Assembly (NCBI GenBank): GCA_016873675.1
Contig: VGWG01000019.1
Span: 1-35,611 of the forward strand
Direction: 5' to 3'
Source: Lentisphaerota bacterium
GTDB taxonomy: Bacteria > Verrucomicrobiota > Kiritimatiellia > RFP12 > JAAYNR01
Length of the DNA: 35,611 nucleotides
Shown piece by piece: positions 3,138 through 31,891 of the stretch. Under the pieces are notes generated by a model, which saw only the letters and a list, made by a program, of their open reading frames with translations, searched no databases and was not told the origin of the DNA. Both the position numbers and the translations under genes were made by a program. The stretch's first letter is position 1. Each line of letters begins with the position of its first letter.

Positions 3138-3659
3138 ATGACATTTGAAGAACGCTTCGAAAAGCTCGAACGCGAACTCGCCGCAGCAACACGGCGCAAT
3201 CGCTGGACGCTGTCCGCCGCTGTCTTAGTGCTGGTGGGTCTGGTAACAGCTCACAGCGTCATCCCTCCTGCGGATGGCTTCATAGCCCGCCGCGGTTTTA
3301 TCGTTACAGACGAGCAAGGGAGGGAACGCATCAGACTGGCCGTGAATTCAGACCAAACCACCCTCGACGGGGCCCCCGCGCTGGAAATATCAGACGCACA
3401 AGGGATCTGCCAGGTCAGCCTGGAGGTGCGTCGGGGGTCACCCTACTTGAGCATGCATGACGCGCAAGGGAGGGGTTTCACGCAGCAAGTGAATGCCGAG
3501 GGCAAACCCGAACTGGGGATGTTCAACGCGCAAGAGAGACCCCGCCACATCACGCTGGATGTGGGTACCAACGGCAACCCCGTCTTAATAATGCGGGACG
3601 ATGCGCGTCAACCGGACGGCGTAGAAATCTTCCGCGACGGAAGTTGGCTCCGGTGGTAG
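3138..3659 (+). CDS. Membrane-anchored coiled-coil protein with DxQGxxR repeats
   Basis: A 173-residue protein. I prefer the ATG at 3138 (MTFEERFEKLERELAA) because GGAAAG lies 8 nt upstream. An upstream Met at 3123 would add MERKT. Residues 1-20 form a short charged coiled coil, 24-44 a single membrane span (WTLSAAVLVLVGLVTAHSVI), and the rest an extracytoplasmic beta-rich region with repeats of about 20 residues: RGFIVTDEQGRERIRLAV, EISDAQGICQVSLEV, SMHDAQGRGFTQQV, GMFNAQERPRHITLDV. This layout is familiar from short PVC-bacterial proteins of unknown function. The last five codons run into the 3' end of the opposite-strand tRNA-Asn gene, so the tRNA sequence supplies the stop codon. Confidence 0.7.
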   Translation: MTFEERFEKLERELAAATRRNRWTLSAAVLVLVGLVTAHSVIPPADGFIARRGFIVTDEQGRERIRLAVNSDQTTLDGAPALEISDAQGICQVSLEVRRGSPYLSMHDAQGRGFTQQVNAEGKPELGMFNAQERPRHITLDVGTNGNPVLIMRDDARQPDGVEIFRDGSWLRW

Positions 3660-3719
3660 GATTCGAACCTACGACCAAGTGATTAACAGTCACCTGCGCT
3701 ACCACTGCGCTACACCGGA
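3645..3719 (-). tRNA. tRNA-Asn (GTT), CCA encoded
   Basis: Read on the minus strand, the cloverleaf is complete. Acceptor TCCGGTG pairs with CACCGGA, the D arm is GCGC-AGTGGTA-GCGC, the anticodon loop is CTGTTAA (anticodon GTT), and the T arm is GTAGG-TTCGAAT-CCTAC. Discriminator G is followed by an encoded CCA. The last 15 bases overlap the end of the convergent coding sequence at 3138-3659. Confidence 0.95.
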
Positions 3720-3767
3720 ACAAGATAAAAGCGACGCATCCGTCCCATGAGGGACAAGACGCGGCGA

Positions 3768-3797
3768 ACTGTAACGCATTCGTGCGGGGAGTGTCAA
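3768..3797 (-). promoter_or_regulatory. Promoter for tRNA-Asn
   Basis: On the minus strand TTGACA (3797-3792), 18-bp spacer, TACAGT (3773-3768). A short GTCCC-ATGA-GGGAC hairpin lies in the leader before the tRNA. Confidence 0.5.
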
Positions 3798-3806
3798 CAG
3801 GTTTCT

Positions 3807-3975
3807 CATGTTTTTCAGCAGTTCTAATTTTCTAATTTTGATTGCATCCTGCCGGTCGAAATCGAAATCGCTATCGGTATCGGGGTCGAATTTCGGCCTT
3901 TTTCGTCGATCCCGATCCCGATATCGATTTGGATCCCGATATCGACGACCATAATTAGAATTGCTGCATGTTTTT
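3807..3975. mobile_element. MITE-like element with ATCGnn hexamer interior, TIRs and 9-bp TSD
   Basis: The element occupies 3816-3966 (151 bp). Its ends are near-perfect terminal inverted repeats: CAGCAGTTCTAATTTT at 3816-3831 and, read inward from the right, CAGCAATTCTAATTAT at 3966-3951 (14 of 16 identical). The 9-bp sequence CATGTTTTT abuts both ends (3807-3815 and 3967-3975), as expected for a target-site duplication. The interior has no gene. Each arm is a run of degenerate 6-bp units (ATCGAA, ATCGCT, ATCGGT, ATCGGG, ATATCG) in opposite orientation around a TTTTTCG centre, so the whole can fold into a long imperfect hairpin. A partial relative lies at 31801-31891. No transposase is present, so mobilisation would have to be in trans. 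Confidence 0.7.
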
Positions 3976-3994
3976 TGCTGTCGCCTCTTTGGGC

Positions 3995-4023
3995 TTGAAA
4001 CAGGGACCACGCTGCGATATAAT
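3995..4023 (+). promoter_or_regulatory. Strong sigma70-type promoter of the rib operon
   Basis: TTGAAA (3995-4000), exactly 17 bp, TATAAT (4018-4023). Transcription would begin near 4030, about a dozen bases before the FMN aptamer. The MITE-like element ends only 20-30 bp upstream. Confidence 0.85.
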
Positions 4024-4042
4024 CTCCGGCAATACAACGCAA

Positions 4043-4180
4043 TGTCTTCAGGGCAAGGTGACCCCGTACACGCAGGGGAATTCCTGACCGGCGGTAAAGC
4101 CCGCGACTGGCACGGCCGATGCGCGCCACTGATACGGTGAAACTCCGTGGCCGACAGTACAGTCTGGATGTAAGAAGACA
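4043..4180 (+). promoter_or_regulatory. FMN riboswitch (RFN element)
   Basis: The conserved RFN sequence blocks appear in order: TCTTCAGGGCAAGGTG, CTGACCGGCGGTAAAGCCC, GCGACTGG, GGTGAAACTCCG, GGCCGACAGT, AGTCTGGATG and AAGAAGACA. The closing P1 helix pairs TGTCTTC (4043-4049) with GAAGACA (4174-4180). It senses FMN and switches off the downstream riboflavin genes, here probably by transcription termination at 4204-4240. Confidence 0.95.
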
Positions 4181-4203
4181 ACCGGCGGCGCATTGCGCCC
4201 CCG

Positions 4204-4240
4204 AAACGCCCTGACGCCTGCCGCGTCCGGGCGTTTTGTT
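4204..4240 (+). terminator. Riboswitch expression-platform terminator
   Basis: AAACGCCC (4204-4211) pairs with GGGCGTTT (4229-4236), and the loop itself contains a GACGC/GCGTC stem. The hairpin is followed by TTTTGTTTTG. It lies between the FMN aptamer and the ribBA start, so ligand binding should favour it. Confidence 0.85.
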
Positions 4241-4256
4241 TTGATGGGAATACCGC

Positions 4257-5468
4257 ATGAGCGCACTTTTTGACGATGTCGAAGTCTGTATCGGCGCGAT
4301 CCGCGAAGGGCAGATGGTCGTGGTGGCCGACGATGAGAACCGCGAGAATGAGGGCGACCTGATCGTCGCAGCCGAGAAGGCGACCCCTGCGGCTGTGAAT
4401 TTCATGGCCGCCCATGGCCGCGGACTGGTCTGTGTGCCGCTCACCCGCAGCCGCTTGGAGCGGCTGGGCATCGGACGCATTCCGCTGAAAAACCGAGGCG
4501 ACGCCTACTCCACCGCATTCATGGACTCGGTGGACGCCACGGCCGCGCACGGCGTGACGACCGGCATCAGCGCCGCCGACCGCGCCGCCACCATCCGCAT
4601 GTTGGTCGGCCGCGACACGACGGCGCATGACTGGGTCAGCCCCGGGCATGTTTTTCCGCTCGAAGCTCGCGAGGGCGGCGTGCTGGTGCGCGCGGGCCAC
4701 ACCGAGGCCGCCGTCGATCTGGCGCGCCTCGCGGGGCTGCAACCCGCTGGCGTCATCTGCGAAATCATGCTCCCCGACGGCTCCATGGCCCGGCTTCCCC
4801 AGTTGCGCGAGTTTGCCACGCGCCACGGTCTCAAGATGGTCTCCATCGCCGACCTGATCGCCTACCGCCGCAGCCGTGAGCGCTTGGTCGAAATGGTCGA
4901 GGAGGTCGACATGCCGACCGCCCATGGCCATTTCCGCCTGCGGATGTACCGTGCCTGTCTCGACGGCAAGGAGCACATCGCGCTGATCAAGGGCGCTGTC
5001 GCGGCCGCCGCCGAACCGGTCTTTGTGCGCGTCCACAGCGAATGCTTCACCGGCGACGTGCTTGGCTCGGCCCGCTGCGACTGCGGCATGCAGCTTCACG
5101 CGGCCATGGAGCGGATCGAGCGCGAGGGATGCGGCGTGGTGCTGTACATGCGCCAGGAGGGTCGCGGCATCGGCCTCGCCAACAAGCTGCATGCGTACAA
5201 GCTTCAGGAGGGCGGCCTCGACACGGTGGAGGCAAATGAAAAGCTTGGCTTTGCGCCTGATTTGCGGGATTATGGCGTCGGCGCCCAGATTCTCAAGGAT
5301 CTGGGGCTCACCCGGATCCGACTGCTGACCAACAATCCGCGAAAGGTGGTGGGGCTTGCCGGCTACGGACTCGAGATCGTCGAGCGCGTCAGCCTGATAG
5401 CCCCGGCGGGCGCGCATAACACGCGCTATCTGGAAACAAAAAAGCGCAGGCTCGGGCATGCGCTGTGA
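4257..5468 (+). CDS. ribBA: Bifunctional DHBP synthase / GTP cyclohydrolase II
   Basis: Cytoplasmic two-domain enzyme that starts both branches of riboflavin synthesis. Residues about 5-205 are 3,4-dihydroxy-2-butanone-4-phosphate synthase, which acts on ribulose 5-phosphate. They carry the acidic metal/substrate loop [10 protein letters not shown] (25-34), the GDAYSTAF block and GHVFPL (130-135). Residues about 210-400 are GTP cyclohydrolase II, with [19 protein letters not shown] (zinc ligands Cys263, Cys274, Cys276), RQEGRGIGL (299-307), [12 protein letters not shown] and LLTNNPRK. At 403 residues the protein has normal family length and looks intact. It is the first gene after the FMN riboswitch. 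The start ATG follows a weak GGGA site. Confidence 0.97.
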
Positions 5469-5507
5469 GCAGCATGAAGCACGGTTGAACACAGAAGGGA
5501 GTCATCC

Positions 5508-31800: not shown

Positions 31801-31891
31801 CAGCAATTCTAATTTTGAACACATCCGTACAGTCGAAATCGAAATCGCTAGCGCTATCGGGGTCGGAGTCGGTATCGGGGTCGGGATTTTC
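31801..31891. repeat. Half-copy of the ATCGnn hexamer element
   Basis: It begins CAGCAATTCTAATTTT, then CATCC, then GTCGAAATCGAAATCGCTA and further ATCGGG/GTCGGA units, matching the left half of the 3816-3966 element. No right terminal repeat follows, so this copy is truncated or represents a single-ended form. Confidence 0.65.

Follow-up and report, generated by a model that had tools for sequence, protein, structure and literature searches.

A gene-free MITE with ISNCY-type ends and a hexamer-hairpin interior beside the rib operon of a Lentisphaerota bacterium

Upstream of the rib operon of a Lentisphaerota bacterium lies a short repeat with inverted ends and a periodic interior, which raises the question of what kind of element it is and where its ends and its filling came from. 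A sequence-only reading of the 35,611-nucleotide stretch of DNA analysed here (the window; contig VGWG01000019.1) had described a MITE-like element with inverted ends, identical 9-bp flanks and opposed hexamer arms able to form a long hairpin, and these observations were confirmed. The element is gene-free and 151 bp long. Its inverted ends, CAGCA(G/A)TTCTAATT, are CAGCAGTTCTAATT on the left and, as the reverse complement, CAGCAATTCTAATT on the right, with 13 of the 14 outer bases identical, and the left end contains an 8-bp tandem duplication (TTCTAATTTTCTAATTTT) that the reading had missed. A perfect 9-bp target-site duplication (TSD), CATGTTTTT, flanks the element on either side (Table 1). 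The window was scanned for 9-bp direct repeats around inverted ends matching at 12 or more of 14 positions and spaced 60–400 bp apart; positions 3807–3975 were the sole such place, and none of 30 mononucleotide shuffles of the window contained the arrangement. Folding of the entire element gave −64.4 kcal/mol, compared with −39.9 kcal/mol for dinucleotide shuffles (z −6.8). The ORFs running across it (3699–5492 and 3824–4480, minus strand) read antisense to the rib genes; neither is a credible gene. Rfam covariance models run on the whole window matched an FMN riboswitch and two tRNAs only, with no match over the element.

Table 1. Coordinates of the element, its parts and its neighbours in the window
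Feature	Position	Strand	Basis
Promoter-like site upstream of tRNA-Asn, TTGACA-18-TACAGT	3768..3797	-	
Left TSD copy, CATGTTTTT	3807..3815	.	Sequence and TSD statistics
Entire MITE, ISNCY-type ends, gene-free	3816..3966	.	
Left TIR, CAGCAGTTCTAATT(TT), with internal 8-bp tandem duplication	3816..3840	+	
Left arm, six in-phase RTCGnn hexamers	3855..3888	+	
Loop and inner stem separating the arms	3889..3906	+	
Right arm, nnCGAY hexamers: four uninterrupted units, then imperfect ones	3907..3946	+	
Right TIR, CAGCAATTCTAATTATG on the minus strand	3950..3966	-	
Right TSD copy, CATGTTTTT	3967..3975	.	
Promoter-like site of the rib operon, TTGAAA-17-TATAAT (11/12)	3995..4023	+	
FMN riboswitch of the rib operon	4040..4183	+	RF00050, 94.8 bits
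Second degenerate copy: exact left end and hexamer array, right end missing	31801..31886	+	

Rightward of the element follow a near-consensus promoter, the FMN riboswitch and the rib genes, in this order. Between the element and the promoter-like site are 28 bp, of which 19 bp separate the site from the TSD, so the insertion does stand beside the rib promoter, as had been proposed. On the other flank we found a tRNA-Asn gene (3645–3719, minus strand) that had been overlooked; since this flank is the tRNA-Asn promoter region, the element is placed between two divergent promoters. The rib copy is one insertion between the two promoters; it may influence rib transcription, but any role would be putative. 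As a separate observation on riboswitches of this type, that of the relative G003 (L298, 1231–1436) has an extended variable stem, being 206 bases long instead of about 140.

The search of the host genome and its relatives for further copies favoured the sequence-only reading, whose stated grounds for refutation were not borne out: other copies have TSDs, and one sibling copy has its empty site. The host genome produced 68 alignments to the element, about 20 of them substantial copies, and the 14-bp end pattern with up to two mismatches was matched 68 times, against 19 for a reversed control pattern. Complete host copies carry differing 9-bp duplications, and more copies are present in relatives of the host. 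Over all genomes checked, TSDs were present in 85 of 116 copies (69 of 9 bp, 13 of 10 bp), whereas shuffled pairing of the flanks of these 116 copies gave a mean of 0.76 TSDs and a maximum of 4; the lack of a TSD in the other 31 copies counts against the explanation preferred below. The suggested search for empty sites succeeded for a sibling copy only. A copy in the congener G001 (L111, 2522–2663) has CCGACAGCC on either side, and the orthologous host locus is an empty site with a single CCGACAGCC in an uninterrupted alignment of 294 bases at 88% identity. For the rib copy itself, no empty site could be obtained among the relatives compared, because synteny is lost in the rib-bearing relatives and a search of the congener MAG for ribBA gave no match.

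These data bear on the simplest alternative, namely that a chance inverted repeat met a chance flanking repeat in low-complexity DNA. Although the repetitive interior raises the number of chance matches, this origin is refuted by the shuffles, the TSD statistics with many independent copies bearing different 9-bp duplications, and the sibling empty site, and we give it practically no weight. The 151-bp element is thus a real MITE: short, gene-free and dispersed in many copies, with TIRs and a TSD, a sibling copy whose empty site is preserved, and an autonomous partner described below. Viral contigs yielded 11 matches to the ends, none of them part of a complete element, and two hexamer hairpins; plasmid records gave no match to the MITE, and phage records none to the transposase. 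An apparent spread of end-bearing repeats into Akkermansia was dropped on grounds of kinship, the records concerned belonging to the congener G001. These CAMBQN records (L099–L172, isolate MiH-14oct19-36) are labelled Akkermansia muciniphila, yet they are placed in the genus of the window and have MITEs in common with it; the label is probably wrong.

Wider-spaced pairs of the same ends in other MITE-carrying genomes led to an autonomous partner (L188, below), and homologues extended the set. ISNCY-family transposons with the same 14–17 bp ends and 9-bp TSDs are present in Desulfobacterota, in Cyanobacteria and, within the host's order, in a different family; they represent the full-length IS that the sequence-only reading had suggested looking for. 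One of them (L188) is 2515 bp long, has a perfect 9-bp TSD (GTTTCATTA) and encodes a 439-aa transposase and a DruA-domain ORF (PF14236, E 1e-34). A second one (L215), from the host's order but a different family, is 2110 bp long with a perfect TSD (ACATACAGC), and a third (L213) is a 1721-bp element with exact ends. Duplications of 9 bp were found on L188, L215, L229 and L231, and relatives on Calothrix and Anabaena plasmids have CAGCAATTCTCATT ends and perfect 9-bp TSDs. A transposase homologue with the same ends also occurs in another Deltaproteobacterium MAG, and decayed homologues occur in three more genomes. A homologue in Gloeothece is annotated as ISNCY, and the homology of the transposase to an annotated ISNCY member amounts to 48% identity; Pfam gave only a sub-threshold DDE_Tnp_1_assoc match to the transposase. 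ISNCY is a holding group of unclassified IS. End pairs 0.5–6 kb apart in MITE-rich loci were also considered as autonomous elements and rejected, being mostly neighbouring MITEs. It was also observed that the DruA-domain protein of L188 (2869–3753, minus strand) adjoins the transposase within an autonomous ISNCY element; the name DruA otherwise refers to the Druantia phage-defence system.

In the host itself, a 38-aa C-terminal remnant of the transposase matches that from the same order at 71% identity (E 8e-12) and stops 163 bp short of an exact CAGCAATTCTAATTTTG end. No intact transposase was found in the host MAG or the congener MAG, which counts against the preferred explanation and makes present-day mobility of the rib copy putative at most. 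Given the partners with the same ends and the decayed host relic, the ends are almost certainly those of ISNCY, an autonomous copy of which was once present in the host. By its ends, the element belongs with a named family, where the sequence-only reading had recognised none.

The interior presents another picture. Compared with six ISNCY elements and the host relic, it has nothing in common with them beyond the ends of about 17 bp: the best BLAST matches cover 14–25 bases with E > 0.1, and no hexamer runs occur in any ISNCY element checked. In our reading, the interior does not derive from an IS. The earlier view that such periodic filling is unlike an IS-derived MITE thus holds for the interior, which is foreign to the IS, but not as a claim of non-IS origin, since the ends are those of ISNCY. 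MITEs commonly arise by internal deletion, and an ISNCY element shortened in this way, its remaining interior having diverged and turned repetitive by slippage, would account for the matching ends and TSD as well as for the slippage-type gain and loss of hexamers that is visible among copies. The lack of common sequence beyond the ends, together with the occurrence of the same hexamer grammar without these ends in other genera, makes this origin unlikely.

How variable the filling can be was seen in 88 stretches of species genomes, from Kiritimatiellae, Desulfobacterota, Aminicenantes, Desantisbacteria and SAR202, in which the same 14-bp ends surround 90–120 bp. The fillers are unrelated from lineage to lineage. 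About half of them fold far more stably than shuffles (z about −3 to −9) and the others no better than shuffles; a universal hairpin interior was rejected, with z near 0 in several lineages. In STCSWMC_123, 27 of 30 filler copies sit between both ends, so that independence of the filler is not supported there.

For the hexamer hairpin, arms of RTCGnn facing arms of nnCGAY were searched as a pattern, with overlapping matches counted and a reversed control. Tens of matches were obtained in the host, the congener and two other genera (G003 and G040), whereas most of the order gave few or none and the reversed control none at all. Of the hexamer hairpins from G003 and G040, 25 were inspected and not one has ISNCY ends; several in the host likewise lack them, and one ATCGTA hairpin there (L291, 966–1120) is enclosed in a different wrapper with the inverted ends GGCGCTAAGTTAAG. 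Because it exists end-free in other genera, the hexamer hairpin probably represents an intergenic palindrome in its own right, of which the MITE is a carrier. The end-free copies also make it fairly probable that a pre-existing, lineage-specific hairpin was captured by ISNCY ends; the reverse direction, in which loss of the ends turned MITEs into end-free hairpins, is possible. Two side observations concern the surroundings of these hairpins. Some in G003 (L255–L274) form part of a longer palindrome, TATTGATCGTTC...GTGACAA, and so represent a second repeat family whose filler follows the same grammar, and in the host a G/T-rich repeat of GTGTGGGTG type precedes the end-free hairpins of L285, L286, L287 and L294.

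In G003, 15 of the 18 end-free hairpins examined lie between co-directional genes, mostly 30–140 bp from each by heuristic gene calls. This placement, the strong fold of the rib element and the position of the rib copy between two promoters would suit a selected functional intergenic element (a terminator, attenuator, mRNA-stability hairpin or protein-binding array) that the MITE spreads, in which case expression of rib or of tRNA-Asn would be tuned by the copy located there. We regard this as rather improbable: the element has no U-tract or terminator call, the rib leaders of three relatives (G002, G003 and G008) have the riboswitch without the MITE, and the two arms vary in unit number independently and thus keep no fixed structure. 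A bolder proposal, for which we see little likelihood, is that the RTCGnn/nnCGAY hairpin represents an undescribed class of dispersed intergenic element, tolerant of register, borne in several wrappers and functioning between co-directional genes. If so, its fixed tetranucleotide core would let both arms expand and contract without loss of pairing, and the ISNCY MITE would be one of several wrappers spreading it.

Taken together, an ISNCY-mobilised MITE carrying a pre-existing hexamer hairpin is very probably the best explanation of the element. ISNCY ends would have come to flank a hexamer hairpin already dispersed between genes in the order. An ISNCY-family DDE transposase, acting in trans, would recognise the outer 17 bp or so only, cut or copy the segment and insert it with a 9-bp stagger. 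Length differences between MITE copies are mostly whole hexamers, gained or lost independently on either arm, and such changes may be tolerated: with RTCG retained as the core of every unit and CGAY as its partner, the arms could pair again in another register.

A search of the literature found no description of these end sequences, and, by title and abstract, none of the papers that pair 'ISNCY' with 'MITE' appears to report ISNCY-derived MITEs. The nearly invariant end sequence ties orphan repeats of several phyla to one transposon family, and the finding that these ends enclose unrelated interiors, many of them hairpin-forming, offers a testable case of how MITEs acquire their filling. By means of the end sequence, such repeats can be annotated in metagenome assemblies, where they break contigs.

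Among known systems, the nearest relatives are the ISNCY IS themselves (Gloeothece verrucosa WP_013335080 and the Calothrix and Anabaena plasmid copies), with which the MITE has TIRs of CAGCAATTCT(A/C)ATT and 9-bp TSDs in common. These IS are 1.7–2.5 kb long and encode a transposase of about 440 aa, in some cases accompanied by a small partner such as a DruA-domain protein, whereas the MITE is gene-free and its sequence agrees with theirs over about the outer 17 bp only. REP, BIME and REPIN sequences are likewise intergenic, palindromic and located between co-directional genes, and the end-free hexamer hairpins resemble them in placement; they are fixed palindromes, in contrast to the hexamer unit grammar here. 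To our knowledge, 9-bp TSDs or IS ends are not expected of REPs. A REP or REPIN is a palindrome of 20–40 bp with a conserved tetranucleotide head, a RAYT transposase and no TSD, and the present element is 151 bp long with a 9-bp TSD and ISNCY ends. IS-derived MITEs such as MITEAba12 (PMC6382973), and the TIMEs (PMC4133298) as a further example, are short, gene-free elements with inverted ends, TSDs and many copies, for which mobilisation in trans is presumed. The elements described here differ from them in that the same ends enclose unrelated, often palindromic fillers across phyla, and in that the filler of the host's MITE is hexamer-periodic and also exists free of these ends.
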